Positions 26,201 to 38,453 of a stretch of 64,000 nt of DNA are shown here, piece by piece. The DNA comes from an uncultured Flavobacteriaceae bacterium (lineage in GTDB: Bacteria; Bacteroidota; Bacteroidia; Flavobacteriales; Flavobacteriaceae). The stretch is from contig CANLUS010000003.1 of NCBI GenBank assembly GCA_947494325.1, forward strand, positions 248,001 to 312,000. The letters are read 5' to 3'. The notes beneath the pieces are model-generated. The model saw nothing but the letters and a program-made list of their open reading frames with translations. It made no database searches and was not told the origin of the DNA. Each line of letters begins with the position of its first letter. Position 1 is the first letter of the stretch. A program made the position numbers and the translations under genes.

Positions 26201-26542
26201 ATGGATTATACATCGCAAAAAGGCAAAACGATTATCTTAAAATCGGCAAGAAGGGTTCGTCAAATTAGTATAGAAGATATTGTTCACATTACCTGCGATT
26301 CCTATTTACTTTCGATTTACTTAGCAGAACAAAAAGAACCCGAAATTGTTTCCAAATCCCTTAAAGAAATTGAAAGAGAATTGGCGAATTTTCATTTTTT
26401 GAGAATAAGTAGAAATAGACTGATCAATTTAAAATACTTCAAATCATACCATATTAACGGCGCAAGAAGAATTACCATGTTTAATGGTGATACCTTGCCT
26501 GTTTCACGGAGAAAATGGTCAGAAATTAAGAATTACTTTTAA
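26201..26542 (+). CDS. Stand-alone LytTR DNA-binding domain regulator
   Basis: A 113-residue protein made almost entirely of a LytTR domain. KGKTIILKSARRVRQISIEDIVHITCDSYLLSIYL aligns with the start of such domains, and FHFLRISRNRLINLKYFKSY with the conserved end. There is no receiver domain or membrane part. LytTR proteins commonly control bacteriocin or peptide production and quorum-type loci. Its place 148 bp before the VKOR fusion gene and at the head of the peptide cassette region suggests it controls that locus; this is inference. Confidence 0.85.
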   Translation: MDYTSQKGKTIILKSARRVRQISIEDIVHITCDSYLLSIYLAEQKEPEIVSKSLKEIERELANFHFLRISRNRLINLKYFKSYHINGARRITMFNGDTLPVSRRKWSEIKNYF

Positions 26543-26690: not shown

Positions 26691-28283
26691 ATGGATGATC
26701 AACTTTTTTTCTTATTGAAGAAACTTTTAGTTAAAGAAAATTTCAAAATTAATTTTGAGGAACTTAAATTACAGTTATTAAGTCATCCTTCGTATCCCAG
26801 TTTACATGCTGTTACTGGTGTTTTAAATCATTTCGAAATAGAGAATTTGGCACTAGAGGTTCCTCAGAATGTTGAAACTCTAAAACAATTACCAACTTAT
26901 TTTTTATCATTCTTAGAAACTAAGCAGTTTGTCTTAGTAAAACAGACTAGAGATGGGTTAGAACTAACCTTCGAGGACGAGACCAAAAAAAGTTTTGAGG
27001 TTGATGATTTTATATCAATTTGGAGCGGGATTATTGTGGTAATTGAAGCAGAAAATATGCCACAAACTGATGCTCATTTCAAGGGAAAAGAAGTTGCTAA
27101 AGGATTACAAATACTATCAGTATTATTAATCGTTTGTTTTTTCTTCTATGTCAAGCCATCACTGTTTGAAGCAATTTATTGTATACTTTCCTTAACCGGC
27201 ATTTGGATTAGCGTGCTCATTTTAAAACAGGAATTGGGTTTTTACTCAAAAACTGTTGAGAAGTTTTGTACTGCAGCACCTTCAAGTAATTGTGATGATG
27301 TATTAAAATCTAGAGGGGCATCGTTCTTGGGGTTCTTCAAATTAAGTGATCTTAGCGTAATCTATTTTAGTGCCTTGGCAATAGGAGCAATAATTGCAAC
27401 GCTATCTTCAATAACTTATGATGCATTTGTTACCATAAGTTTACTCGCATTACCGATTACAATTTATTCTATTTACTATCAATACTATGTAGTGAAAAAG
27501 TGGTGTCCGTTGTGCCTAACAATAGTGTTGGTTTTATGGTTGCAGGCTGCTAGTGTTTTTTTCGGAAATTCTTCAATAACCAATTTAGAATTTGATGTAT
27601 TGAGTAATTTTATACTATTTTTTAGCCTTGTTTTATGCGGAGCAATATGGTTATTTTTAAAACCACTCTTAAAAAAACAGCATGAATTTAAAAAATTAGA
27701 GATTGATCATTATAAATTTAAACGAAATGCCGACTTGTTCAAGGCGGCGTTAAATAACAGTGATTATTTAGAAACTAATATTGCCGAAATCAACGAAATT
27801 TCTTTAGGAAACATAAATTCTCCGTTAAAGATATTACTCGTAACAAGTCCCTCTTGCTATTATTGTAAATCTGCACATTTAGATTTAGAAAAGATTCTCC
27901 GAAAACATCCAGATGAGGTGCATATGACTATTCGTTTTAACGTACCAGAAGATTCCTCACAAATAGCCAATAAAGTCGCTCAAAGACTTTTAGAAATCTA
28001 CAATGTTGGAAATAATAAAGAAATTAATGAAAGTTTGCATTCTGCGTACGAAGAAAACGTTGATTTAGAAAAATGGATAACGATAAACGGAGAAAGTTCA
28101 ACTTCATTTAAATCTACTTTAAAAGCTCAAAAAACGTGGTGTATCGACAATCGCGTTAATTTTACCCCAGCATTATATATCAATGGAAAATTTTTTCCGA
28201 GAGTATATGATCGTACAGACCTTTCCTATTTTATTGAAGATCTTACCGAACAGATCGAAATAACTGAACCGGCCATTAATTAA
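26691..28283 (+). CDS. C39-like / VKOR / thioredoxin fusion protein (disulfide-forming membrane enzyme)
   Basis: A 530-residue protein with three parts. Residues 1-120 resemble a C39 peptidase domain but the catalytic Cys and His are absent (SHPSYPSLHAVTGVL where DCGxxCL would be). Residues about 140-325 form a vitamin K epoxide reductase (VKOR) membrane domain with all four redox cysteines (Cys193, Cys201, and the CPLC pair Cys272/Cys275). Residues about 375-530 form a thioredoxin-like domain with a CYYC active site (Cys389/Cys392) and a cis-proline segment (NFTPALYING). VKOR-thioredoxin fusions make disulfides in exported proteins. Downstream lie cysteine-rich peptide genes and a C39 exporter, so oxidation of those peptides is the likely job. 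The dead C39 domain could recognise their leaders. Confidence 0.87.
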   Translation: MDDQLFFLLKKLLVKENFKINFEELKLQLLSHPSYPSLHAVTGVLNHFEIENLALEVPQNVETLKQLPTYFLSFLETKQFVLVKQTRDGLELTFEDETKKSFEVDDFISIWSGIIVVIEAENMPQTDAHFKGKEVAKGLQILSVLLIVCFFFYVKPSLFEAIYCILSLTGIWISVLILKQELGFYSKTVEKFCTAAPSSNCDDVLKSRGASFLGFFKLSDLSVIYFSALAIGAIIATLSSITYDAFVTISLLALPITIYSIYYQYYVVKKWCPLCLTIVLVLWLQAASVFFGNSSITNLEFDVLSNFILFFSLVLCGAIWLFLKPLLKKQHEFKKLEIDHYKFKRNADLFKAALNNSDYLETNIAEINEISLGNINSPLKILLVTSPSCYYCKSAHLDLEKILRKHPDEVHMTIRFNVPEDSSQIANKVAQRLLEIYNVGNNKEINESLHSAYEENVDLEKWITINGESSTSFKSTLKAQKTWCIDNRVNFTPALYINGKFFPRVYDRTDLSYFIEDLTEQIEITEPAIN

Positions 28284-28287
28284 AAAT

Positions 28288-28322
28288 GCTAGCACTTTTC
28301 TGCGCAAACAGAAAAGGCTAGC
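28288..28322 (+). terminator. Strong hairpin after the VKOR fusion gene
   Basis: GCTAGC-(bulged A)-CTTTTCTG pairs with CAGAAAAG-GCTAGC around a 6-nt loop: 14 bp with one bulge. No T-run follows, so it may be a transcript-end stabiliser or attenuator rather than a classic terminator. It lies directly before the first pseudoknot leader. Confidence 0.5.
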
Positions 28323-28334
28323 GTGAACAATATC

Positions 28335-28383
28335 TTCTCGCGAAAGATAGACTGAAACCTTGACGGTCTCAAAATGTTCAGGG
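28335..28383 (+). promoter_or_regulatory. Pseudoknot leader element, copy 1
   Basis: Stem 1 is AGACTG (28349-28354) with CGGTCT (28364-28369), including one G-U. The loop carries CCTTGA (28358-28363), which pairs with TCAGGG (28378-28383), one G-U, to form stem 2 of an H-type pseudoknot. It is preceded by the CTCGCGAAAGAT box and ends 26 nt before the start of peptide 1. Confidence 0.75.
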
Positions 28384-28409
28384 CTAATATAATTTAAAAA
28401 TTTACTATC

Positions 28410-28607
28410 ATGAAAAAATTAGCAAATTTAAAAGGAGTTAAAACCTTAAGTAAGCAGCAACAGCTGGGTATTACCGGTTCTAGACTAAAGGCCTGTCAAG
28501 TTGGTTGTGCGGGTTTGAGTCATGGTGATAGCTGTTGGGCAACTGGTGTTTCACCAAATTGTTCTTGCCCAGGAATGTGTGCCGGAGGAGTTTGTAATCC
28601 TTTTTAA
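28410..28607 (+). CDS. Double-glycine-type leader peptide precursor 1 (7 Cys)
   Basis: A 65-residue precursor. The leader (MKKLANLKGVKTLSKQQQLG) is shared with the other seven cassette peptides and ends ITGS at 21-24, where most siblings have GG, so the cleavage site is a Gly-Ser variant. The 41-residue core has seven cysteines, including CQVGC, CSCPGMC and a terminal VCNPF, and few charges. This fits a small secreted disulfide-bonded peptide exported by the adjacent C39 exporter and oxidised by the VKOR fusion. No lanthipeptide or other modifying enzyme is nearby. Activity (bacteriocin, signal or other) is unknown. A pseudoknot leader sits 26 nt upstream. Confidence 0.8.
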   Translation: MKKLANLKGVKTLSKQQQLGITGSRLKACQVGCAGLSHGDSCWATGVSPNCSCPGMCAGGVCNPF

Positions 28608-28616
28608 ACCGATATG

Positions 28617-28641
28617 AGCCGAGAGTGTTTTCTTCTTGGCT
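28617..28641 (+). terminator. Hairpin after peptide 1
   Basis: AGCCGAGA pairs with TCTTGGCT (8 bp, one G-U) around a 9-nt loop and is followed by TTTATTTT. It is a weak to moderate terminator. Confidence 0.5.
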
Positions 28642-28654
28642 TTTATTTTGCAAT

Positions 28655-28691
28655 AGACCGAAACTTTGACGGTCTTAAAAGCGCTCAAAGT
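28655..28691 (+). promoter_or_regulatory. Pseudoknot leader element, copy 2
   Basis: Stem 1 is AGACCG (28655-28660) with CGGTCT (28670-28675), a perfect 6 bp. Stem 2 is ACTTTGA (28663-28669) with TCAAAGT (28685-28691), a perfect 7 bp. The CGCGAAA box is missing in this copy. It ends about 25 nt before the peptide 2 start. Confidence 0.78.
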
Positions 28692-28715
28692 CGATAAAAT
28701 TTAAAAATTTATTTA

Positions 28716-28961
28716 ATGAAAAAATTAGCAGATTTAAAAGGAGCAAGAGCTCTAAATAAAATAGAACAACAAAGTGTTAACGGCGGTGGAAGATTGAAAC
28801 CCGGTGGAGGTGGAGGTTGTTGTGACCCCGCGATCGATTGTTGTGTACCAAATGACGGGGCTCCGAGACCGCAATGTCCACCTCCAACAGGTAGTGCAAA
28901 TTGCACTTTTTTATATTCTTATCAGACTACAAATTCTCCATATACGAGTTGCTGTTTCTAA
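28716..28961 (+). CDS. Double-glycine leader peptide precursor 2 (8 Cys)
   Basis: An 81-residue precursor. The leader MKKLADLKGARALNKIEQQS ends in VNGG at 21-24. The core has a glycine/proline-rich start (RLKPGGGGG) and eight cysteines in paired form (CCDPAIDCC, then single Cys residues in PQCPPP and SANC, then a terminal CCF). The paired-Cys pattern CC-x4-CC is shared with peptide 3. The rest is hydrophilic with Tyr and Thr. It is a member of the cassette family, presumably secreted and disulfide-bonded. Confidence 0.8.
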   Translation: MKKLADLKGARALNKIEQQSVNGGGRLKPGGGGGCCDPAIDCCVPNDGAPRPQCPPPTGSANCTFLYSYQTTNSPYTSCCF

Positions 28962-28968
28962 GTTATTT

Positions 28969-28994
28969 AGTCCAAGGAAGATGTTTCTTGGACT
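28969..28994 (+). terminator. Hairpin after peptide 2
   Basis: AGTCCAAGGAA pairs with TTTCTTGGACT (11 bp, one G-U) around a GATG loop, followed by TAACTTTT. It probably limits read-through to the next cassette. Confidence 0.6.
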
Positions 28995-29023
28995 TAACTT
29001 TTCACAATGACTTAGTCAATGGA

Positions 29024-29058
29024 AGACTGGAACCTTGAGAGTCTTAAAATGTTCAAGG
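29024..29058 (+). promoter_or_regulatory. Pseudoknot leader element, copy 3
   Basis: Stem 1 is AGACT (29024-29028) with AGTCT (29040-29044). Stem 2 is CCTTGA (29033-29038) with TCAAGG (29053-29058), perfect. There is no CGCGAAA box. It ends 25 nt before the peptide 3 start. Confidence 0.77.
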
Positions 29059-29083
29059 ATAGGATAATTTAAAACATAACATT

Positions 29084-29281
29084 ATGAACAAATTAATGAA
29101 TTTGCCCGGTGTAAAAACACTCAATAGAAAAGAACAACAAAACATAAATGGAGGAGGGAAAGGTCGTCCAACTTGTTGTAATCCAACAATTTATTGTTGC
29201 TCAATAGTAAATAGTCCCAACTTAGACTGTTTGGTTTATGGATCAGATGATGCTTCTGGATTTACAGATGATTGCGTTTAA
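29084..29281 (+). CDS. Double-glycine leader peptide precursor 3 (6 Cys)
   Basis: A 65-residue precursor with leader MNKLMNLPGVKTLNRKEQQN and INGG at 21-24. The core has a basic start (KGRPT), then CCNPTIYCC, which mirrors peptide 2, then two further cysteines and an acidic C-terminal half (GSDDASGFTDDCV). Peptides 2 and 3 look like divergent copies of one another, while peptide 1 has a different core. It lies directly upstream of the C39 exporter. Confidence 0.8.
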   Translation: MNKLMNLPGVKTLNRKEQQNINGGGKGRPTCCNPTIYCCSIVNSPNLDCLVYGSDDASGFTDDCV

Positions 29282-29305
29282 ATTAATTGAAAATTAAAAA
29301 CATAT

Positions 29306-29340
29306 TACATCAAGAATGAGTTTTTCTCATTCTTGATGTA
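29306..29340 (+). terminator. 15-bp perfect hairpin between peptide 3 and exporter gene
   Basis: TACATCAAGAATGAG (29306-29320) pairs with its perfect complement (29326-29340) around TTTTT. It is followed by TTAATTCT rather than a long T-run, so it may be a partial terminator that lets the small peptide be made in excess of the exporter. Confidence 0.65.
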
Positions 29341-29362
29341 TTAATTCTGATAATCAAAAGTA

Positions 29363-31555
29363 TTGAAGAAATTCCCACATTATAAACAAACGGAATCAAA
29401 AGATTGCGGCCCAACTTGTATTAAGATTGTTGCGAGACATTTTGGTAAGACGATACATGTGCAAACTTTACGTGATTTGTCCGAAACTACACGAGAAGGT
29501 AGCAGTCTCTTAGGCTTAAGTGAAGCCGCCGAAAAAATAGGGTTTCATACCATAGGAGTTAAACTGAATTTTAAAAAATTAGAAGAAGCCCCATTGCCTT
29601 GTATTGTACATTGGAATAAAGAGCATTTTGTTGTCGTCTACAAAATTAAAAAAGATGAGATCTATTTGTCAGATCCGGCTCATGGTTTACTAAAATATAC
29701 AAAGGAAAAATTTCTACAACATTGGATTGGTCATAATACTGATGAAACTACCGAAGAAGGTATTGCTTTATTGATAGAACCAACACCAAAATTTTACAAC
29801 GATGACCTTTCATCCAAGGAGGATGTAAAATTCAATTTTACTTTCATTTCAAGATACTTGTTCAAGTACAAAAAGTTTATTATACAAATTATAATTGGTT
29901 TGCTTGCCGGTAGTTTGTTACAGTTAATTGTTCCGTTTTTAACACAGAGTATTGTAGATGTAGGAATTCAAAACCAAGACATTCACTTTATATATTTAAT
30001 CTTATTTGCTCAATTATTCCTGTTTTTTGGTCGTACTGCGCTAGAAGTAATAAGAGGCTGGATATTACTGCACTTAAGCACGCGCATCAATATATCGTTA
30101 GTATCCGATTTTTTTATCAAATTAATGAATTTACCCATTTCATTTTTTGATACGAAAATGACGGGTGATTTGTTACAACGCATAAATGATCATAGCCGCA
30201 TTGAAAGAATTTTGACAGTATCATCTCTAAGTGTACTATTCTCGATCGTAAATATGATCATTTTCGGAATTGTTTTAGGCTATTATAGTTTACAGATATT
30301 CTCCATCTTTTTAATTGGTAGTATCTGTTATTTTGCATGGGTCTTATTCTTTTTTAAACGAAGAAAAGACTTAGATTATATGCGTTTTTCTGAAGTAAGT
30401 CAAGAGCAGAGCAAGGTCATCGAATTGATCAATGGCATGCAAGAAATCAAATTACATAATGCCGAGCGTCAAATGCGCTGGAATTGGGAGTTTGTGCAGG
30501 CACGCTTGTTTAAAGTAAGTATGAAAAGCTTGGCTCTAGAGCAAACGCAATCGGTGGGGTCTTCTTTTATTAATGAGCTGAAAAACATCTTAATAACAGT
30601 ATTGTCCGCCAAATTGGTTATTGAAGGTGATATTACCTTAGGTATGATGATGGCTATTTCGTATATCGTAGGGCAGCTTAACGCTCCTGTGGCGCAATTA
30701 ATTGCTTTTTTAAGAGATGCGCAAGATGCAAAGATCTCATTAGATCGATTGGGTGAAATACATAATAAAGAAGATGAAGAATTGGCGGGAGAACAAAAGA
30801 TTATGCTTCTTCCAGAAAATCAAGATATTCATCTTAACAATATCACCTTTAGATATATAGGGGCCCTAGAACCTGTAATAAAGAATTTAAATGCTGTCAT
30901 TCCAGCCAATAAAATAACGGCAATCGTGGGCGTTAGCGGAAGTGGTAAAACCACCTTAATGAAATTGTTACTAAACTTTTATCCCTTAGATAAGGGAGAT
31001 ATTATGGTCGGCAGTTATAATCTCAGAAACATTTCACAAAAGGTATGGCGAGAGCGCTGTGGTGTGGTGATGCAAGAGGGTTATATTTTTAATGATACGA
31101 TCGCAAAGAATATAGCCGTGGGTGCTGCTTTTGTGGATCATGAAAAACTGTTACACGCGAGCAAAGTCGCCAATATCAATTCGTATATCAACGAACTTCC
31201 TTTGGGTTATAATACCAAAATTGGCTTAGAAGGTACGGGCTTGAGCACGGGTCAAAAACAACGCTTGTTAATAGCAAGGGCCGTCTATAAAAATCCGGAC
31301 TATCTATTTTTTGATGAAGCGACAAGTGCCTTAGACGCTAACAACGAAAAGGTGATCATGGAGAATTTAAACGAATTTTTTAAAGATAAAACAGCAGTAA
31401 TTATTGCCCATAGATTGAGTACTGTAAAAAATGCGGATCAGATCATAGTGTTAGATAAAGGAGAAATAGTAGAAAAAGGAGATCATAAAGAATTAACAAA
31501 ATTAAAAGGAGCCTACTATCATTTGGTCAAGAATCAACTGGAGTTAGGCAACTAA
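29363..31555 (+). CDS. Peptidase-domain ABC exporter (C39 PCAT), cassette locus
   Basis: A 730-residue exporter that cuts leaders after double glycine and exports the peptide. The C39 peptidase domain (about 1-135) has its catalytic triad: Cys15 in SKDCGPTC, His88 in KEHFVVV and Asp104 in LSDPAHG. The membrane domain (about 165-450) has six helices. The ABC domain has Walker A GVSGSGKTT, signature LSTGQKQRL (Thr for Gly, a mild variant) and Walker B LFFDEATSALD. The start codon is TTG at 29363; no ATG fits upstream of the conserved FPHYKQTESKDCG. It is surrounded by eight leader-peptide genes and the HlyD adaptor at 31908. Confidence 0.95.
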   Translation: MKKFPHYKQTESKDCGPTCIKIVARHFGKTIHVQTLRDLSETTREGSSLLGLSEAAEKIGFHTIGVKLNFKKLEEAPLPCIVHWNKEHFVVVYKIKKDEIYLSDPAHGLLKYTKEKFLQHWIGHNTDETTEEGIALLIEPTPKFYNDDLSSKEDVKFNFTFISRYLFKYKKFIIQIIIGLLAGSLLQLIVPFLTQSIVDVGIQNQDIHFIYLILFAQLFLFFGRTALEVIRGWILLHLSTRINISLVSDFFIKLMNLPISFFDTKMTGDLLQRINDHSRIERILTVSSLSVLFSIVNMIIFGIVLGYYSLQIFSIFLIGSICYFAWVLFFFKRRKDLDYMRFSEVSQEQSKVIELINGMQEIKLHNAERQMRWNWEFVQARLFKVSMKSLALEQTQSVGSSFINELKNILITVLSAKLVIEGDITLGMMMAISYIVGQLNAPVAQLIAFLRDAQDAKISLDRLGEIHNKEDEELAGEQKIMLLPENQDIHLNNITFRYIGALEPVIKNLNAVIPANKITAIVGVSGSGKTTLMKLLLNFYPLDKGDIMVGSYNLRNISQKVWRERCGVVMQEGYIFNDTIAKNIAVGAAFVDHEKLLHASKVANINSYINELPLGYNTKIGLEGTGLSTGQKQRLLIARAVYKNPDYLFFDEATSALDANNEKVIMENLNEFFKDKTAVIIAHRLSTVKNADQIIVLDKGEIVEKGDHKELTKLKGAYYHLVKNQLELGN

Positions 31556-31565
31556 AAATATCATT

Positions 31566-31614
31566 TCGCGAAAGATGGACACAAACTGCAAGTGTCTTAA
31601 AATGATTGCAGTTT
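31566..31614 (+). promoter_or_regulatory. Pseudoknot leader element, copy 4
   Basis: It is preceded by TCGCGAAAGAT. Stem 1 is GACAC (31578-31582) with GTGTC (31592-31596). Stem 2 is AAACTGCAA (31583-31591) with TTGCAGTTT (31606-31614): the core base pairs differ from other copies yet all pair, which is covariation. It lies just before the peptide 4 start. Confidence 0.8.
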
Positions 31615-31638
31615 TTAATAATGTTTAAATTTTTAAGT

Positions 31639-31851
31639 ATGAAAAAATCAATTTCAGAATTAGGTGAAGTATTAACAAAAGTGCAACAAAAGTCTATTAC
31701 AGGGGGCGATCCTCCTTGTTTTGAATGGTGTGCTGATGAAGATTTACAAGAACATTTTCCTTTGGCAGAATGTTCATGTGGTTCTAATGGTGGAGGTCCA
31801 GGTGGAGGTTCTGGCAGTGGTGACGATGGCGGACCAGGAAATGCCTTATAA
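31639..31851 (+). CDS. Double-glycine leader peptide precursor 4 (4 Cys, Gly/Pro-rich tail)
   Basis: A 70-residue precursor. The start is set at the ATG at 31639 to match the sibling leaders. The frame is open to 31606, but that start would lie inside the pseudoknot. The leader MKKSISELGEVLTKVQQKSI ends TGG at 21-23. The core is acidic with four cysteines (PPCFEWC, ECSC) and then a glycine-rich low-complexity tail (about 27 residues of G, S, D, P). The tail resembles the Gly-rich stretch near the N-terminus of the peptide 7 core. It sits between the exporter and adaptor genes. Confidence 0.75.
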   Translation: MKKSISELGEVLTKVQQKSITGGDPPCFEWCADEDLQEHFPLAECSCGSNGGGPGGGSGSGDDGGPGNAL

Positions 31852-31907
31852 AATCTATCTACAATAGTAGTAGGGGGAGGAAACTCCCTCTGTTTTTCAA
31901 ATAAAAT

Positions 31908-33200
31908 ATGACCGAAGAAAATAAAGACATAAAAATACGAAGTGAGGAGGTTCAAGAGATATTGAGCTTTGTACCTAATTGGATGATTCGCTGGGGCAAT
32001 ACCTTGATTTTGTTTTTAATCATTGGATTGTTGCTTATATCATGGTTTGTTAAATATCCAGATACTATTGTCACCGAAATTACGGTAACTACGCAAATAC
32101 CTCCCGAGAAGATCTATGCGCGTACTAGCGGACAAATAGATGCGATTTTGGTAGATGATAATGAAGAAGTATCTAAAAATAAATTATTGGGTATCATAGA
32201 AAATACCGCCAATTATAAAGATGTCATTTTACTCAAAAATATTTTAGATACACTAACGATCAATTATAAAGATTTTTACTTTCCACTAGAAGAATTACCG
32301 ATTTTATTTTTAGGAGATGTAGATAGTGATTTTGGGTTATTTGAACGTAGCTATGCTTCCTACAAATTGAATAATGCCTTACAACCCTTCTCGAATGAAT
32401 CATCAGCAAACCAGCTGTCGATGGCAGAGGCTAAAAGTAGATTGAATACTATGATTGCACAGCAAAGTCTTAATCGTAAAGAGATCGCTCTAAAGAAGAA
32501 AGATATGGGCCGCTTTGAAAAGTTATTTAAAAAGGGCGTGATATCTGCGCAAGAATATGATCAAAAGCAGCTCGATTATTTACAATCACAGCGCGCCTAT
32601 CGCAGTATGAGTACTTCTATTTCTCAATTGCGAGAAACGATTGGAAATTCGAAGAAAAATTTAAGAGATACCGAGATACGAAAGGCCCAAGACGATAATG
32701 CGGCCTTAAAGAGTGTGATACAATCGTACAATCAGCTCAAACGAAGCGTAAAGAAATGGGAACTTAATTTTGTGTTGCAAAGTTCAATAGAAGGTGAAGT
32801 CTCTTTTTTATCTTTTTGGAATGAAAATCAAACAGTAAATCAAGGAGATCAGGTGTTTACTATTATTCCAACAGGTGATAATTCGTTTATAGGCAAGATC
32901 AAAGCACCAGCACAAAATTCTGGTAAGATTAAAGAAGGGCAAAATGTCAATATCCGCTTAGCCAATTATCCATATACAGAGTTTGGTATGTTAGAAGGTA
33001 CGATTAGAAGTATATCAATGGTGCCAGATACTAATGGAAATTATTTGATCGATGTTCAACTACCCGAAAAATTAATAACGACCTACAAGAAAGAAATTGC
33101 CTTTAAACAAGAAATGAGTGGTTCAGCCGAAATTATTACTGAAGATCTACGCTTGATAGAACGATTTTTCTATCAATTAAAAAATATATTTAATAAGTAA
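31908..33200 (+). CDS. HlyD-family periplasmic adaptor, cassette locus
   Basis: A 430-residue membrane-fusion protein. It has a short cytoplasmic start, one membrane helix at about 28-47 (LILFLIIGLLLISWFVKY), a lipoyl-type half motif (YARTSGQIDAILVDDNEEVSKN), a long coiled coil (about 150-280) and a second lipoyl/beta-barrel part (SIEGEVSFLSFWNENQTVNQGDQVFTII). It links the C39 exporter to an outer-membrane channel, presumably TolC-like and encoded elsewhere. No TolC gene is in the window. It is followed directly by pseudoknot copy 5. Confidence 0.93.
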   Translation: MTEENKDIKIRSEEVQEILSFVPNWMIRWGNTLILFLIIGLLLISWFVKYPDTIVTEITVTTQIPPEKIYARTSGQIDAILVDDNEEVSKNKLLGIIENTANYKDVILLKNILDTLTINYKDFYFPLEELPILFLGDVDSDFGLFERSYASYKLNNALQPFSNESSANQLSMAEAKSRLNTMIAQQSLNRKEIALKKKDMGRFEKLFKKGVISAQEYDQKQLDYLQSQRAYRSMSTSISQLRETIGNSKKNLRDTEIRKAQDDNAALKSVIQSYNQLKRSVKKWELNFVLQSSIEGEVSFLSFWNENQTVNQGDQVFTIIPTGDNSFIGKIKAPAQNSGKIKEGQNVNIRLANYPYTEFGMLEGTIRSISMVPDTNGNYLIDVQLPEKLITTYKKEIAFKQEMSGSAEIITEDLRLIERFFYQLKNIFNK

Positions 33201-33209
33201 CAATATTTT

Positions 33210-33256
33210 TTCGCGAAAGATAGACACAAACCTTGAGTGTCTAAAAAAGTTCGAGG
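33210..33256 (+). promoter_or_regulatory. Pseudoknot leader element, copy 5
   Basis: The TTCGCGAAAGAT box is followed by stem 1, AGACAC (33222-33227) with GTGTCT (33237-33242), and stem 2, CCTTGA (33231-33236) with TCGAGG (33251-33256, one G-U). It ends 24 nt before the peptide 5 start. Confidence 0.77.
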
Positions 33257-33280
33257 CTAGTAAATTTTAAAACTATAAGT

Positions 33281-33484
33281 ATGAAAAATTTAATGAATTT
33301 AAAGAGCGCGAAGCTCTTAAGCAAAGCAGAGCAAAGGAATATACAAGGTAAAGGCCCTGGTGGACCACCAGTTAATGAAGGTCCATGTGGTGAAACAGGA
33401 GGAACAACAACTAGTGATACTTATTTCAGTTGCATAACGTATGGTTATGTTTGGTCGTTCAACCAATGTTGGGTCTGTTATTAA
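33281..33484 (+). CDS. Double-glycine-type leader peptide precursor 5 (4 Cys)
   Basis: A 67-residue precursor. The leader MKNLMNLKSAKLLSKAEQRN ends IQGK at 21-24, so the usual second glycine is lysine; a GG occurs later (GPGG at 25-28). The core is Gly/Pro-rich at first, then has four cysteines and an aromatic C-terminus (YVWSFNQCWVCY). The leader is close to those of peptides 7 and 6. It follows the HlyD gene by 80 bp and is closed by a strong terminator. Confidence 0.77.
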   Translation: MKNLMNLKSAKLLSKAEQRNIQGKGPGGPPVNEGPCGETGGTTTSDTYFSCITYGYVWSFNQCWVCY

Positions 33485-33513
33485 TTAAAAATGATGTGTT
33501 TGTTACCCAGTGT

Positions 33514-33542
33514 AAAACCAAGAAGAAATTCTTCTTGGTTTT
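33514..33542 (+). terminator. Intrinsic terminator after peptide 5
   Basis: AAAACCAAGAAGAA pairs with TTCTTCTTGGTTTT, a near-perfect palindrome (about 12 bp usable stem, small loop) ending in T4, 30 bp after the stop. Confidence 0.82.
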
Positions 33543-33601
33543 ATATAAATATCATAATTCGATTTGAAATCATGACTGACGATCTTACTTTATATAAATG
33601 T

Positions 33602-33640
33602 TCTTTAATCAACTCAAAAAAATATTTAATAAGTAACAAC
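33602..33640 (+). repeat. Duplicated 3' end of hlyD ahead of cassette 6
   Basis: The segment reading ATATTTAATAAGTAACAA and its flanks (33630-33650) matches the last codons and stop region of the HlyD gene (33186-33205), running straight into a pseudoknot in both places. This marks a duplication of the hlyD-end/pseudoknot/peptide unit. The copy is non-coding. Confidence 0.6.
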
Positions 33641-33643
33641 ATT

Positions 33644-33692
33644 TTTCGCGAAAGATAGACACATATCTTGAGTGTCTTTAAATGTTCAGGAT
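33644..33692 (+). promoter_or_regulatory. Pseudoknot leader element, copy 6
   Basis: The TTCGCGAAAGAT box is followed by stem 1, AGACAC (33657-33662) with GTGTCT (33672-33677), and stem 2, ATCTTGA (33665-33671) with TCAGGAT (33686-33692). The outer C-G pair of other copies is T-A here. It ends about 22 nt before the peptide 6 start. Confidence 0.78.
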
Positions 33693-33713
33693 TAATATTT
33701 TAAAATTTTTATT

Positions 33714-33896
33714 ATGATAAATTTATTGAGCTTAGGGAAAGTCTTAAGCAAGTTAGAGCAACAATCTATTCAGGGCGGATTTGCCATTACTTATTGGGAA
33801 GACAGAACCGAATGTATAGACGATACCAGAGTATGGATATATGAAGATGATCCAACAGCGGAAGAACTAGAGGCATATAATACAGTAGAATGTTAG
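33714..33896 (+). CDS. Double-glycine leader peptide precursor 6 (2 Cys, acidic)
   Basis: A 60-residue precursor with leader MINLLSLGKVLSKLEQQSIQ and GG at 21-22. The 38-residue core is strongly acidic (ECIDDTRVWIYEDDPTAEELEAY) with only two cysteines, one near the start and one at the C-terminal residue, which could form a single ring-closing disulfide. Its composition is unlike a cationic antimicrobial peptide. It arose in a duplicated unit (see 33602-33640). Confidence 0.75.
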   Translation: MINLLSLGKVLSKLEQQSIQGGFAITYWEDRTECIDDTRVWIYEDDPTAEELEAYNTVEC

Positions 33897-34119
33897 CTTT
33901 TAGATGTAACTATAATTTATAGTATTCCATTTTAGCAATGATGGTATATCCAATAAAGTGGATATGCCATCTGGATTAAACAAAATATTACCTATCAAAT
34001 AAATTGATCATACTTAAGATCACTTTTCATGCCTTAATTTGATTATAAATGAATTAACTGGATAGTTACAAAAAGATCAGATCTTAATCATAAAAATAAC
34101 TTATGAAGTAACAACATTT

Positions 34120-34167
34120 TTTCGCGAAAGATAGACACAAACCTTGAGTGTCTCAAAATGTTCGAGG
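34120..34167 (+). promoter_or_regulatory. Pseudoknot leader element, copy 7
   Basis: The TTCGCGAAAGAT box is followed by stem 1, AGACAC (34133-34138) with GTGTCT (34148-34153), and stem 2, CCTTGA (34142-34147) with TCGAGG (34162-34167, one G-U). It is almost identical to copy 5. It ends 23 nt before the peptide 7 start. Confidence 0.77.
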
Positions 34168-34190
34168 CTAATAAATTTAAAATTTTAGAT

Positions 34191-34424
34191 ATGAAAAAAT
34201 TAGCAAATTTAAAAGGGGCGAAGCTCTTAAGTAAGTTAGAACAAAAGAAATTGTTGGGTGGTGACCCAATACCGAGCGGACCAGGTAGTGGAGGTAACGG
34301 CGGAGGCGGAAATACTGGTTTCCCTCCAGGTTACGGATGGCCTACTAATGAAGAAGATTGTATACTATGTTGGGGTGAATGGGAAGGTATTTGTGCCTTG
34401 CCATATGATTCTCCATGTCTTTAA
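34191..34424 (+). CDS. Double-glycine leader peptide precursor 7 (4 Cys, Gly-rich)
   Basis: A 77-residue precursor. The start is set at the ATG at 34191; the open frame upstream to 34158 begins inside the pseudoknot. The leader MKKLANLKGAKLLSKLEQKK ends LLGG at 21-24 and is closest to that of peptide 1. The core begins with a Gly/Pro-rich spacer (PGSGGNGGGGNTGFPPGYGW) and ends with four cysteines (EEDCILCWGEWEGIC and a terminal PCL). It is followed 18 bp later by peptide 8. Confidence 0.8.
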   Translation: MKKLANLKGAKLLSKLEQKKLLGGDPIPSGPGSGGNGGGGNTGFPPGYGWPTNEEDCILCWGEWEGICALPYDSPCL

Positions 34425-34442
34425 TAATTTAAATCTTAGCAT

Positions 34443-34655
34443 ATGAAAACAATAATGAATATAAAAGGTGTAAAAGCCTTGAGTAAAAATGAGCAACAAC
34501 AAGTATTTGGAGGTTGGCCAGTAGGGTTTGCCGATTCTTGTACCAATCCATCTGGATTGTCATGTGATCCTGCTCAAACTTCGATGATTACGGGCAACCC
34601 CGATTGTCGATTAAATGAGACTTGCTCAGCCCAAGGGGTATGTGTTTGTGCTTAG
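34443..34655 (+). CDS. Double-glycine leader peptide precursor 8 (6 Cys)
   Basis: A 70-residue precursor with leader MKTIMNIKGVKALSKNEQQQ and VFGG at 21-24. The core has six cysteines spread through it (DSC, LSC, PDC, ETC and a final GVCVCA). It has no pseudoknot of its own and lies 18 bp after peptide 7, so it is read from the peptide 7 transcript. It is the last gene of the plus-strand peptide locus and is followed by a strong terminator. Confidence 0.8.
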   Translation: MKTIMNIKGVKALSKNEQQQVFGGWPVGFADSCTNPSGLSCDPAQTSMITGNPDCRLNETCSAQGVCVCA

Positions 34656-34670
34656 GTTATTAGAACTGAT

Positions 34671-34696
34671 GAGAGAGAAATTTCGATTTCTCTCTC
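34671..34696. terminator. Bidirectional terminator between the two peptide-export loci
   Basis: GAGAGAGAAAT pairs with ATTTCTCTCTC, an 11-bp perfect stem around TTCG, followed by T6. It separates peptide 8 (+) from the convergent CPBP protease gene (-). Confidence 0.9.
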
Positions 34697-34717
34697 TTTT
34701 TTATTATTTTTTAAAGT

Positions 34718-35365
34718 TCAATAGTGGATAAAATTGGTAAAGCTAATAATCAGAAAGTATGCTATTAAACTCGAAAATGAATTAAATTTTAACCTTAAAT
34801 GAGCTAATACAATACCAATTATTATTATTGGAATGATGTGATAAAAAAGTATTTCGCGCCCACTGGTATATTCTAACTCAAATTTGGAAACATGAAACGT
34901 AGAAAGCGTAATAAGAGATAGGACAAAGTTTATTTTTTGTACCCATTTGGAATTCACCCTTCTATTATAAAAAATAATAATAAAAAGGGAATATATGCCG
35001 TAAGTATAAAGATGTGCGCTTTGATCTAAAAAACTTTTACAACCTAAAAATAAGAGCAATGGTAAAGTAAGTAATATATTATTTATTGAAATTTGCAATG
35101 ACTTTCTAAAAACAAATTCTTCAAAGAAGATGTAAAAAATAATAGCAGGAAAAATTTTATTGTTATACTGTGCATAATGAAAGTTCTCTTTAAGTACGAA
35201 CATCCCGCTACTGACTGAGAAATCATTATTATAAATTAAAACTAAACAAATACCATATAAGAGGAGTAGCGTGGTTGATAACAAGGAAGAATAAAAAGTA
35301 TACTTAAGCAGATAAGCCCAAGTATACCTTTTATTTTCTTCATGTCTTCTTTTAGGAAAGTCCAT
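34718..35365 (-). CDS. CPBP/Abi-type intramembrane metalloprotease-like protein
   Basis: A 215-residue protein with about six membrane helices. The first CPBP motif EExxxR is present (FFEEFVFRKSL, about residues 80-90). A later STFH matches the FxxxH-type motif loosely, and an AHLRLKFN segment may be the third motif. CPBP/Abi proteins act in prenyl-protein cleavage and, beside bacteriocin genes, in self-immunity or maturation. The gene abuts the stop of the double-glycine peptide at 35366 with no gap, so translational coupling is likely. Immunity is inferred from context. Confidence 0.75.
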   Translation of the reverse strand: MDFPKRRHEENKRYTWAYLLKYTFYSSLLSTTLLLLYGICLVLIYNNDFSVSSGMFVLKENFHYAQYNNKIFPAIIFYIFFEEFVFRKSLQISINNILLTLPLLLFLGCKSFLDQSAHLYTYGIYSLFIIIFYNRRVNSKWVQKINFVLSLITLSTFHVSKFELEYTSGREILFYHIIPIIIIGIVLAHLRLKFNSFSSLIAYFLIISFTNFIHY

Positions 35366-35557
35366 TTATTTAAACCATGAAAAAGGACTTAGATTTTTAA
35401 TAATATCTCCAACGTCAGATATGGTTTGGCCGATAGTCTGACCTATGTGATATCCTAAACTATATCCTCCTTGGACATTTCCATTATTACTAACGTGACA
35501 TTGTGGGCAATCACCTCCATTTATTTCGATTAATTCTTGGGCATTTAAATTTTTCAT
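35366..35557 (-). CDS. Class II bacteriocin-like double-glycine peptide B
   Basis: A 63-residue precursor. The leader MKNLNAQELIEING ends with GG at 14-15 (ELxEINGG is the classic ComC/class II pattern). The core starts DCPQCHVSNN and has a glycine-spaced segment GYHIGQTIGQTISDVGD containing GxxxG-like spacing, then a hydrophobic tail (SPFSWFK). GxxxG motifs drive helix pairing in two-peptide (class IIb) bacteriocins. It lies 10 bp downstream of peptide A and directly before the CPBP gene. No experimental function is known. Confidence 0.8.
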   Translation of the reverse strand: MKNLNAQELIEINGGDCPQCHVSNNGNVQGGYSLGYHIGQTIGQTISDVGDIIKNLSPFSWFK

Positions 35558-35567
35558 ATGATATATT

Positions 35568-35771
35568 TTAATTACTCATTCCATTTCTAATACCATCTCC
35601 AAGACCAGCTAGAAACCCTAAAGTTGCCAAACCTGTATCTAAAGCTTTGGATCCAATCCAAATTGACGATCTAAATAGAGAACTCATACCATCTGTTAAT
35701 CCTCCCCCATTTAATTTATAGATTTCGTTATTATCTAATTCTAAAACTTTGTATTTTTTTAAATTTTTCAT
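35568..35771 (-). CDS. Class II bacteriocin-like double-glycine peptide A
   Basis: A 67-residue precursor. The leader MKNLKKYKVLELDNNEIYKL ends NGG at 21-23. The core is cysteine-free, glycine-rich and amphipathic (IWIGSKALDTGLATLGFLAG, then LGDGIRNGMSN), with several small-xxx-small spacings typical of class IIb bacteriocins. It pairs with peptide B (10-bp gap, same strand). Its leader is unlike those of the plus-strand cassette family, so it probably uses the minus-strand exporter. Confidence 0.8.
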   Translation of the reverse strand: MKNLKKYKVLELDNNEIYKLNGGGLTDGMSSLFRSSIWIGSKALDTGLATLGFLAGLGDGIRNGMSN

Positions 35772-35886
35772 AAAAATATGCTTTTAAATTAATAGTTTAT
35801 TTTGCATTGCTAATTGAAATTAACAAGTATTTCAAAACTTTGGTTACGTCTAACCTACCACGTCTAGTATTCTAGTTTTGATATTG

Positions 35887-36240
35887 CTAAGTTAGTTTTG
35901 TGCAATGCCGTATCCTGTCGTTATACGTATTAAACAATGTAGTTTCTAAAATTCTATTTAAAACAGCAGCTCCTGCATAAATAGTAACTAATTCTTGGTT
36001 TACCAATGCTTTTACGGATACATTAACCAATAAATCAAAATCGCAATCATAATAATATGAGTTAGAGGCTCGAGAAAAAACTATTTTTGCATCCAATTCT
36101 TTTAGATATTCCAAAATTCTATATAATTCTCTTTCGCTGATGTACAATCTTCTTGAGAATTCTTTGGGTGAGCCCGTATTGCCTTGTTGAATGAGTTTAT
36201 GTGCTTTACGTAGTCTTTCAAGTTGTTTTAAAGTTTTCAT
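35887..36240 (-). CDS. Small helix-turn-helix regulator of the bacteriocin-like locus
   Basis: A 117-residue protein. Residues 1-75 form a winged helix-turn-helix (LERLRKAHKLIQQGNTGSPKEFSRRLYISERELYRILEYL), with the wing in FSRASNSYYYDCDF. The C-terminal 40 residues are of unknown type. It lies 40 bp after the exporter gene and 115 bp before peptide A on the same strand. It resembles short HTH proteins encoded beside double-glycine peptides in Flavobacteriia, and likely regulates peptide expression. Confidence 0.75.
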   Translation of the reverse strand: MKTLKQLERLRKAHKLIQQGNTGSPKEFSRRLYISERELYRILEYLKELDAKIVFSRASNSYYYDCDFDLLVNVSVKALVNQELVTIYAGAAVLNRILETTLFNTYNDRIRHCTKLT

Positions 36241-36280
36241 ATCGGGAAATTTATATTTAATTATTGTTTTGTTTTAACAC

Positions 36281-38452
36281 TCATTTTAAATTAGGAGGGC
36301 TTAAAGATGGCATTTGTTTGCGCCATAAATTGTAATAATGTTTTTGTCTATTTAAGAGTTCATTATGAGAACCTTGTTCAATAACCTTACCTTTGTTTAA
36401 AACTACTATGGAATCTGAATTTACAACAGTACTCAGGCGGTGTGCTATGAGCACAATAGTTTTTTGCTGATTTCGTAAGTTCTGAATTGTTTTTTGAATA
36501 ATATTTTCTGAAGCGCTATCTAGGGAGGATGTCGCTTCATCTAACAATAAAATCTCTGGTTGTCTGTATAAGGCGCGGGCAATAGCTATACATTGTTTTT
36601 GACCACCCGATAAGGTGGCGCCATTTTCACCCAAATAAGTGTTGAATCCGTTAGGTAGTGCTTCAATGAATTTCAGAATGCCTATATCATTGCAAATTTT
36701 TAAAATAAGTTCCATATCTGGTTGAAAATCTCCTACAGCGATATTATCAATAAGATTACCTGAGAAAAGGTCAGTTTTTTGGGGCACGACACTAACGAGG
36801 TTTCTAAGACTCATAGTTTCAATATAGCGTAGGTTGAAATCACCAATTGAAATGTGACCGTCTTGCAGTGGATACATGTTTTGCAATAATGAGATTAACG
36901 TAGATTTACCAGATCCACTCTCACCAACTATGGCGGTTATTTCCCCTTTTTTTAAAGTAAGGTTGAAATTTTTAAATACTTCCATGCGTGTACCATAACG
37001 AAATTCTACATTTTTAAAAGTTATGTTTTCTATTTTATCAGATGTTAATTTGAACTTATTTTTGACTTGTTCACGGTCTAAATCCATTATTTCAAAAAGT
37101 CTGTCTGCGGCAATTAGAGCATTCTGTATTGTTTTATTAGCCATAATTAGACTGGATATTGGCCCGGTGAAATACCCAATAATCGCATAAAAAGAAAGTA
37201 ATTCACCTGGAGTAATTTCTTTGTCAACGACGAAATAAGTCCCGCTCCATAATAAGATGATGGTAAATAATCTCGAAATCGATTGTGATGAATTTCCACT
37301 AAAGATACTGTTCAAAGCTGACGTATAGCCAATATGTAACAAACTAATGAAACGAGTCTCGGTTTTTATATTTGTGAAATCTTCCAAACCAAAACGTTTT
37401 ATAGTGGCTACTGAATTTAAAGATTCTACCAACTGACTTTCTAAATCTGCCGAACGCTCCATTACATGACGTTCTGTTTTTTTATTTAATTTATTGGTTA
37501 TTAAGTAAATAATTATATATACTGGAATTATACTAAGCATAATTAATGCAAGTTTCCAATAGTAACTGAACATTAAAGCAAATGAGAAAATGACTATAAA
37601 AATATTTACAGTAAGTGTTAATGATGTGCTATTGATGAATACTCTAATTTTCACAGCGTCATTGATACGGGAAATAATTTCACCCACCCGCATCGTATCA
37701 AAAAACTGTTGAGGTAGTTTTAGAAGGTGCTTGTAATACCCTAAAATAAGTCTAGCATCTATTTGTTGACCTGTTTTTATGATGAATATATCTTTAAAAG
37801 CTCCAATAAATATTTGAATTATAAGTAAAGCGAGCATTATAATACTTAATAGATTTAATAATTTTATATTTCCGCCTACTAAAACATGATCCGTAATTTT
37901 TTGAATGTAAATTGAAGTTGATAAACCGAGGAGGGTATATATAATAGCACCAATTAGAGCCTGAATTAAAACAAATTTGTGAGGTTTTAGTAAAAACCAA
38001 AATCGTTTAAAAACAGAAACTTTTTCATTGCCTTGAGTAAAACTTTCATTCGGTAATAAGATTACTAATACACCTGTCCACTCCTCTCTAAATTCAACGT
38101 GCGTTTTCTTTTGTATTTTACCCGTAGCTGGGTCCATGATTTTTACATATTTTTTGTCAATGCCGTAAAAGACAACATAATGTAGTAAACGTTCCTTTAA
38201 GACTAAATGGGCAATCGATGGTTTAGGTATTTTGAAGAGACTATTAAAATCACCACGTACACCTTTTGCATCAAAACCTAGTTTTTGAGCAGCTTCAAGT
38301 AGACCCAAAACGTTGGTTCCTTTTTTATCAGTGCTGGCATACTGTCGAATTCGGGCGATGGGTATTTCCAATTTATAATGAGCACATATAGAAGCTAAAC
38401 AGGCGGCACCACAATCGGTAATATCGTGTTGTTTAATTGAAATTTTCGACAT
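36281..38452 (-). CDS. Peptidase-domain ABC exporter (C39 PCAT), minus-strand locus
   Basis: A 723-residue exporter. The start is set at the ATG ending at 38452 (MSKISIKQHDITDCG), 1 bp after the HlyD stop. An open frame continues 21 codons upstream into hlyD but is unlikely. The C39 domain has Cys14 in ITDCGAACL, His91 in LHYVVFYG and Asp107 in MDPATG. Six membrane helices lie at about 160-440. The ABC domain has GESGSGKST, LSGGQKQ and ILLLDEATSSLD. It is clearly distinct from the plus-strand exporter and is expected to process peptides A and B. Confidence 0.95.
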   Translation of the reverse strand: MSKISIKQHDITDCGAACLASICAHYKLEIPIARIRQYASTDKKGTNVLGLLEAAQKLGFDAKGVRGDFNSLFKIPKPSIAHLVLKERLLHYVVFYGIDKKYVKIMDPATGKIQKKTHVEFREEWTGVLVILLPNESFTQGNEKVSVFKRFWFLLKPHKFVLIQALIGAIIYTLLGLSTSIYIQKITDHVLVGGNIKLLNLLSIIMLALLIIQIFIGAFKDIFIIKTGQQIDARLILGYYKHLLKLPQQFFDTMRVGEIISRINDAVKIRVFINSTSLTLTVNIFIVIFSFALMFSYYWKLALIMLSIIPVYIIIYLITNKLNKKTERHVMERSADLESQLVESLNSVATIKRFGLEDFTNIKTETRFISLLHIGYTSALNSIFSGNSSQSISRLFTIILLWSGTYFVVDKEITPGELLSFYAIIGYFTGPISSLIMANKTIQNALIAADRLFEIMDLDREQVKNKFKLTSDKIENITFKNVEFRYGTRMEVFKNFNLTLKKGEITAIVGESGSGKSTLISLLQNMYPLQDGHISIGDFNLRYIETMSLRNLVSVVPQKTDLFSGNLIDNIAVGDFQPDMELILKICNDIGILKFIEALPNGFNTYLGENGATLSGGQKQCIAIARALYRQPEILLLDEATSSLDSASENIIQKTIQNLRNQQKTIVLIAHRLSTVVNSDSIVVLNKGKVIEQGSHNELLNRQKHYYNLWRKQMPSLSPPNLK

Positions 38453-38453
38453 G

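Follow-up and report, generated by a model that had tools for sequence, protein, structure and literature searches.

A covarying leader pseudoknot upstream of GG-leader peptide genes in Flavobacteriaceae

The export locus and its seven pseudoknots

The DNA analysed here (the window) is a stretch of 64,000 nucleotides (nt) from an uncultured Flavobacteriaceae bacterium (contig CANLUS010000003.1, positions 248,001 to 312,000). Its segment 28335-34167 lies in an export locus comprising a VKOR/thioredoxin fusion, an ATP-binding cassette (ABC) exporter of the peptidase-C39 type, an HlyD-type protein and eight genes for peptides with leaders of the double-glycine (GG) type. The original prediction held that an H-type pseudoknot recurs seven times in this locus, ahead of the peptide genes. 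All seven copies were read directly, and a two-stem search blind to base sequence recovered them at starts 28349, 28655, 29023, 31577, 33221, 33657 and 34133. The element precedes seven of the eight peptide genes; the eighth (34443-34655) is without a copy of its own. The features of the locus are listed below, S1 and S2 being the first and second stems of the pseudoknot (or knot) and ORF an open reading frame. All listed knots rest on direct reading, two-stem search and alignment.

26691-28283, plus strand: VKOR/thioredoxin fusion protein, 530 aa (Pfam; a C39-like N-terminus is weak, below the Pfam cut-off)
28349-28383, plus strand: pseudoknot copy 1 (S1 28349-28354/28364-28369, S2 28358-28363/28378-28383)
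28410-28607, plus strand: GG-leader-type peptide gene 1, 65 aa, site GS (no Pfam or NCBIfam match)
28655-28691, plus strand: pseudoknot copy 2
28716-28961, plus strand: GG-leader peptide gene 2, 81 aa (ORF translation)
29023-29058, plus strand: pseudoknot copy 3, S1 AAGACT/AGTCTT
29084-29281, plus strand: GG-leader peptide gene 3, 65 aa (ORF translation)
29363-31555, plus strand: peptidase-C39 ABC exporter (PCAT), 730 aa (Pfam PF03412, PF00664, PF00005)
31577-31614, plus strand: pseudoknot copy 4, 21 nt past the PCAT stop, S2 ACTGCAA/TTGCAGT
31639-31851, plus strand: GG-leader peptide gene 4, 70 aa (ORF translation)
31908-33200, plus strand: HlyD-family membrane fusion protein, 430 aa (Pfam PF13437)
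33222-33256, plus strand: pseudoknot copy 5, 21 nt past the HlyD stop
33281-33484, plus strand: GG-leader-type peptide gene 5, 67 aa, site GK (ORF translation)
33657-33692, plus strand: pseudoknot copy 6
33714-33896, plus strand: GG-leader peptide gene 6, 60 aa (ORF translation)
34133-34167, plus strand: pseudoknot copy 7
34191-34424, plus strand: GG-leader peptide gene 7, 77 aa (ORF translation)
34443-34655, plus strand: GG-leader peptide gene 8, 70 aa, no pseudoknot of its own, 18 nt after gene 7

The copies share a geometry of about 35 nt, with an S1 of 6 base pairs (bp), a loop L1 of about 3 nt, an S2 of at least 6 bp and an A-rich loop L3 of about 8 nt. In none of the seven does a linker separate the 5′ strand of S2 from the 3′ strand of S1, both stems reaching at least 6 bp. 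AGAC forms the outer end of S1 in most copies of the window. In copy 4 the S2 sequence is replaced entirely and pairing is kept. The statement that G-U pairs are the only variants is not quite exact: in copy 3 the innermost position of S1 is unpaired, and an outer A-U pair is gained. Likewise, the distance to the start codon is nearly constant, as had been noted, but its limits differ from the 22-27 nt given then: from the end of S2 to the ATG we count 26, 24, 25, 24, 24, 21 and 23 nt. A loose two-stem descriptor matched the window 37 times on the plus strand (the seven copies included) and 26 times on the minus strand, as against 21, 23 and 32 matches in three shuffles of the plus strand. Because shuffles give similar counts, the copies are distinguished by shared sequence, position and covariation and not by the descriptor alone.

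Leaders were assigned with a regular expression instead of a curated model. By eye, the cleavage sites of the eight window peptides read GG in six, GS in one and GK in one. Pfam named none of six peptides tested, and NCBIfam none of eight.

Covariation, distribution and linked genes

A covariance-model search brought up many further copies with covariation in both helices. Covariation was not confined to the seven copies, the matches were not scattered without link to peptide genes, and they did not fall into a known Rfam family. The proposal that selection acts on RNA structure was borne out with 7, 48 and 271 sequences, in statistics that treat sequences without a tree model. In the seven-copy alignment 98.8% of cells pair and two-sided change affects 7 of the 12 pairs; the covariation score is 0.524, versus 0.240 ± 0.045 in shuffles. 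None of 500 shuffles matched the pairing, the two-sided change or the score, and six of the 500 equalled the count of further pair types. When the pairing partner was slid by 1-3 columns, pairing dropped to 23-44%.

The 48-sequence alignment was chosen by hand and excluded near-duplicates, weak rows (E above 0.04) and four non-members among the 53 matches of covariance model R1 (two in genome G019, one each in G095 and G179). Here pairing holds in 95.8% of cells and two-sided change in 9 of 12 pairs (62 cells). The score is 0.432; shuffles give 0.186 ± 0.013, slid controls do not exceed 0.132, and no shuffle out of 500 reached the observed value. One slid control (+1) also gives 9 two-sided pairs, but in 17 cells versus 62. 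The largest set, 271 sequences with an effective number of 134, was kept from 319 segments after a filter on S1 only and removal of locus edges and duplicates. A model-free analysis of columns -28 to +41 (mutual information, average-product corrected) placed S1 or S2 pairs in all six top ranks for covariation. A pattern fixing parts of S1, L3 and the S2 ends had supplied 141 of the 319 segments. Pairs 10-33, 11-32 and 12-31, which the pattern left free, rank second, first and fifth. Because the set was filtered on S1 and partly selected by pattern, the S2 pairs are the cleaner evidence.

Fourteen diverged copies from genomes below the first cut-off were folded singly. They comprise 13 of 17 weak matches and one stretch found by eye; left out were L357 and L358, already known, and the weak L303 1764 and L307 1923, and one of the fourteen (L302) repeats a training copy (L022). 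Both helices form in all 14, and a GG-leader peptide gene lies downstream of 13, the exception (L306) standing ahead of a lipoprotein-like gene. New versions of S1 appear among them (GGACC/GGTCC, GGACAT/ATGTCC), as do new versions of S2 (TCGCGA/TCGCGA, TCAAGA/TCTTGA, CCACG/CGTGG, TCGTGT/ACACGA). Together, these comparisons show a conserved cis-acting RNA that is encoded on the same strand as the GG-leader peptide genes of Flavobacteriaceae and lies some 27 nt before their start codons.

At an E-value of 0.001, model R2 matched 36 of the 397 family genomes, with 119 copies in all, and a phylum-wide draw gave 8 of 395 genomes, all eight from the same family; searches of this size apply stricter filters and miss weak copies. 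Model R1 also picked up two genuine copies outside the family but within its order (L020, L025). A single genome can hold up to 18 matches. Among the matches listed from one pattern scan of reference genomes (80 of at least 112 matching stretches), the carriers include Tenacibaculum, Aquimarina, Flavobacterium, Bizionia, Dokdonia, Kordia, Winogradskyella, Olleya and Sinomicrobium. Four metagenome-assembled genome (MAG) records among those listed are labelled otherwise (Bacteroidales, Cytophagales, Oligoflexales and Bacteroidetes HGW-3), and some of these oddly labelled records may be misassigned contigs. The contig labelled as an Oligoflexales MAG (L259, JALZUO010000115.1) carries a knot and a GG peptide; since a sister record set of the same MAG series name, JALZUT, holds Olleya, this contig may be misbinned. 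A search of viral contigs with one narrow pattern gave no match.

The predicted link to peptide genes was supported: of the 119 matches across the family, 109 are followed by a GG-leader peptide gene, a rule met at 155 of 4000 random positions. These 119 are all the family-wide matches at E 0.001, picked from 178 by locus and score rank. Of the remaining ten, three have GG-like leaders with altered sites (L087, L161, L181), four seem to stand before damaged peptide genes or ones without a start codon (L141, L150, L157, L178), and the others precede a lipoprotein-like gene (L184), an unrelated ORF (L136) or no ORF (L153). The wider set has GG peptides behind 163 of 178 matches, and the pattern matches behind 132 of 141. 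Four of the nine other pattern matches are at a locus end, two have altered sites, two (L213, L229) stand before lipoprotein-like genes and one (L262) before another ORF. The link is thus strong and not exclusive, a few copies preceding lipoprotein or other genes. Nor is the knot a mere by-product of one leader sequence, since the leaders form visibly different groups.

Several of these atypical contexts may be recorded individually. Homologous Aquimarina lipoprotein-like genes lie behind the knots at L213 1140 and L229 303, and knots also stand ahead of a lipoprotein-like gene at L046 19611 and of a secreted-protein-like gene in L020. Knots are retained before apparently broken or start-less peptide genes at L141 920, L178 6193, L157 1764 and L047 9674.

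The searched loci contain 195 GG-leader ORFs: 138 with a knot match, 22 without one that do not closely follow another peptide gene, and 35 without one that do (followers, at most 45 nt behind). The resulting rate of 138 in 160 is biased, the loci having been fetched because they bear knots. A few of the 22 show a diverged knot by eye (for instance L186 2034 and L046 16192). That none of the 35 followers has a knot is largely forced, since a gap of at most 45 nt is too short for a knot and its spacer.

Comparison with known RNAs

The original prediction knew of no named RNA class with this structure and context, and the comparison with Rfam agreed: no family matched the copies. A scan with 4227 families of Rfam 15, preQ1, SAM-II and Flavo-1 among them, gave no match at gathering score in the 64-kb window. 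Sixteen other knot loci gave a single kind of match, to DUF805b (RF02914, clan CL00115), elsewhere than at the knot. In the window DUF805b has no match at its gathering score of 35.6 bits; relaxing the threshold to E 5 in 28250-34500, or to E 10 at copy 5, brought up none either, and its segments CCGAAAA and GAGUAGG are absent, by eye, from the seven copies and from the 48-sequence alignment. Reciprocally, model R2 run on 29 of 30 DUF805b loci gave seven weak matches (E at least 0.74), none at a DUF805b position. DUF805 (RF03081), of the same clan and likewise a cis element with an A-rich stretch after the 3′ strand of S1, has no match at gathering score in the window; at copy 5 it scores 14.2 bits (gathering 51.1; E 1.7), misaligned on the spacer. 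Membership in DUF805b or DUF805 was rejected on these grounds: neither the knot model nor that of DUF805b finds the other element, and DUF805 stays below its cut-off.

In other respects DUF805b, which a survey of 2017 reportedly described, resembles the knot. It is a 35-nt cis element of Flavobacteriaceae, an ORF starting with ATG follows it in 29 of the 30 best-scoring loci (at about 17-30 nt in 26 of the 29), and by eye a signal-peptide-like beginning is seen in many of the adjacent proteins and a GG-type leader in five or six. Its shape (S1, loop, 3′ strand of S1, UAAAA-type stretch, GG) looks pseudoknot-like, beyond what the Rfam model describes. The differences are in sequence (CCGAAAA...GAGUAGG), in an S1 of 4 bp and in spread: at E 0.001 DUF805b is present in 115 of 199 genomes of the family, 86 of which exceed its cut-off, as compared with 36 of 397 for the knot. 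The resemblance is one of context, not of membership. Further DUF805b copies were seen at L150 8745-8780 (minus strand), before a GG-type peptide gene, and elsewhere in the window's own genome (G000:C7:148865-148897).

The context extends to the VKOR-thioredoxin gene, present in 34 of the 36 knot-bearing genomes versus 55 of 397 overall. Eight of the 21 genomes with this gene and no strong knot give weaker knot matches, and four more show diverged knots downstream of the VKOR gene (L341, L345, L346, L350). In three (L349, L355, L356; one with an AG cleavage site) DUF805b fills the knot's place between VKOR and a GG-type peptide gene; one of these three genomes, G472, is also among the eight. 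The remaining such genomes have neither element within the approximately 1 kb examined.

Among compact pseudoknots, the preQ1-I riboswitch is an H-type fold of about 34 nt with an A-rich L3. The present knot differs from it in having no Rfam match and in an S2 that is a full covarying helix, mostly without an unpaired junction base. Among the titles listed by literature searches, in which most subscription papers are missing, none describes such a motif. The knot is therefore filed as a new RNA class within the familiar kind of short cis-acting leader pseudoknots.

Leader architecture and possible modes of action

A feature absent from the original prediction is a hairpin, here called P0, that abuts S1 on its upstream side. 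It has 4-7 bp in five of the seven window copies, as read from the fold, and 3 bp in copies 2 and 3.

28332-28348, plus strand: P0 of copy 1, 5 bp, loop CTCGCGA
31563-31576, plus strand: P0 of copy 4, 4 bp
33205-33221, plus strand: P0 of copy 5, 7 bp
33641-33656, plus strand: P0 of copy 6, 6 bp, loop CGCG
34116-34132, plus strand: P0 of copy 7, 7 bp

Among 176 copies (178 matches after duplicate removal), a P0 of at least 5 bp ending at most 2 nt from S1 was found in 105; shuffles gave 13.5 ± 3.5, and shifted positions between 5 and 42. Its loop is mostly TCGCGA-like, sometimes TGCA or AGCT, and many P0 sequences are near-palindromes. Such a self-complementary loop could permit kissing dimers or form a DNA-binding site.

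Downstream, the end of S2 lies 24-30 nt from the ATG in 148 of 163 genes, with a standard deviation of 1.9 nt without four outliers, at least two of which (copy 4, L149) reflect a wrong start chosen by the script. Unlike this narrow distance, the gap from the upstream stop varies, its 5th and 90th percentiles being 16 and 262 nt. The spacer between knot and ATG has 10% G+C, with G at 5% or less at nearly all positions; since this AU-rich stretch is almost free of G, it holds no Shine-Dalgarno-like sequence. An A stands at -3 in 141 and at -12 in 139 of the 163 knot-bearing genes, and A at these two positions has been shown to raise translation in F. johnsoniae (PMC6847099). An AUG within L3 was considered as a coding start and rejected: it is present in 110 of 163 copies, in frames 34/30/46 with no clear preference relative to the peptide start, and 15 are open through that start. 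One example is at 34158-34160 of the window.

In 43 of 144 copies with an upstream ORF on the same strand, S1 begins at most 40 nt past its stop, the ORF often being PCAT, HlyD or VKOR. Copies can sit 15-30 nt behind transporter genes; this leaves no room for a promoter between, and action after transcription is therefore suggested. The flavobacterial -7 box TAnnTTTG, as published (PMC9723704), occurs within 150 nt upstream of 11 of 176 copies as against 15 on the other strand, and a standard promoter just upstream was rejected. The short gaps and the lack of enrichment of the -7 box strongly suggest that the knot has no promoter of its own nearby. A scan for promoters of the sigma-70 style found 39 versus 31.9 ± 5.5.

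We propose that the knot acts at translation initiation of the peptide cistron, most likely as a standby or docking structure, and give this reading slightly less than an even chance. P0, in most copies, and the 6+6-bp pseudoknot would act post-transcriptionally on the peptide cistron. The folded knot would end near the upstream edge of the initiating 30S subunit, behind the AU-rich start region that lacks a Shine-Dalgarno sequence; like a standby site, it would raise translation of the peptide relative to the adjacent transporter genes, and a bound protein would perhaps tune this effect. Action at this level is suggested on four grounds: the distance to the ATG is narrow, the start region is open and carries A at -3 and -12, no pocket is evident, and tisB offers a precedent. 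In E. coli, binding of 30S and S1 at the tisB standby site depends on a pseudoknot of the 5′ untranslated region, a finding backed by compensatory mutations (PMC7708055). The arrangement found here, a structure outside an open start region free of a Shine-Dalgarno sequence, is that expected of a standby site.

Several observations weigh against this proposal. A at -6, also published as a positive position, is not enriched (51 of 163) and is less frequent with a knot (0.34) than without (0.58). In 57 knot-less peptide genes of the same loci, A at -3 is as frequent as behind knots (0.88 in both) and A at -12 nearly so (0.75, versus 0.87 with a knot); the start signature is thus not knot-dependent. 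Twenty-two of 160 non-follower peptide genes in the loci studied are without a model match, so that not all of these genes need the knot. Duplication of peptide genes, with the spacing passed on, could explain part of its constancy. The conserved bases of S1 (AGAC/GTCT), L1 and L3 suggest specific recognition, which a plain standby site does not need. Finally, the tisB standby site is located about 100 nt upstream of a sequestered ribosome binding site and serves one toxin gene (PMC7708055).

The same features can be read in other ways. The polycistronic RNA might be cut in the AU-rich stretch before P0, with P0 and the knot shielding the new 5′ end and yielding long-lived peptide mRNAs that end in 3′ hairpins. 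The position of knots between genes of apparent operons, the abutting P0 (105 of 176, versus 13.5 shuffled) and the terminator-like hairpins that follow some peptide genes (28250-35600 holds 17 such sites on its two strands, versus 4.4 expected) are in keeping with such processing, as are hairpins of at least 5 bp located 25-30 nt upstream of S1 (42 and 37 of 176, versus 5-16 at other shifted offsets). A shield, however, requires no fixed distance to the ATG, and the conservation of S1 and L3 exceeds what a structural block needs (in a set partly chosen by a pattern fixing some of these bases); we consider this account rather unlikely. That same conservation, near-invariant AGAC/GTCT in S1 and AAA in L3, would suit a switch in which a metabolite or dedicated protein binds the knot and toggles peptide translation, and the many copies per genome (up to 18 matches) could form one regulon. 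In most copies, however, twelve pairs run on without a break, the S1/S2 junction being fully paired (L341 and L308 are among the few with an unpaired base there), so that no small-molecule pocket is evident; alternative pairing looks unlikely with a start region of 10% G+C, and no trans-acting gene was identified, though none was searched for. On balance we hold such a switch to be improbable.

An element acting as DNA (an operator, a promoter or a recombination site aiding the shuffling of peptide cassettes) would account for repeated copies flanking the cassettes and for a P0 that is often a near-palindrome around TCGCGA, TGCA or AGCT. It fits poorly with two interleaved helices that covary, with the wholesale replacement of S2 in some copies and with the fixed strand and place before the ATG, and we rate its likelihood as very slight. 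A purely repeated-DNA or operator reading is ruled out by the two interleaved covarying helices. A further idea, which we also think improbable, extends the translational reading to DUF805b: the two unrelated-looking elements would serve as exchangeable docking sites, bringing the 30S platform or bS1 to mRNAs of exported peptides in place of a Shine-Dalgarno sequence, the anti-Shine-Dalgarno tail of flavobacterial ribosomes being locked away.

Whatever its mode of action, the knot adds a strongly supported RNA class, unmatched in Rfam 15, that is tied to small-peptide secretion in flavobacteria. The exported peptides are candidate bacteriocins or signals, and the knot offers a handle with which to search for their genes, scattered singletons included. 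DUF805b gains context, as it can replace the knot before GG-leader peptide genes. Bacteroidia do not recognise Shine-Dalgarno sequences (PMC9976891), so that the choice and ranking of mRNAs by their ribosomes becomes directly testable with a structured element whose distance from the start codon varies so little.

Two neighbouring regions of the window deserve mention. Translations of 35366-39611 (minus strand) show another ABC exporter of the C39 type, accompanied by an HlyD-like protein and by GG-leader peptides that differ in type from those above, and a search of the window with the knot models gave no copy in that region. Just upstream of the export locus, 26201-26542 encodes a protein with a LytTR DNA-binding domain, a candidate regulator.

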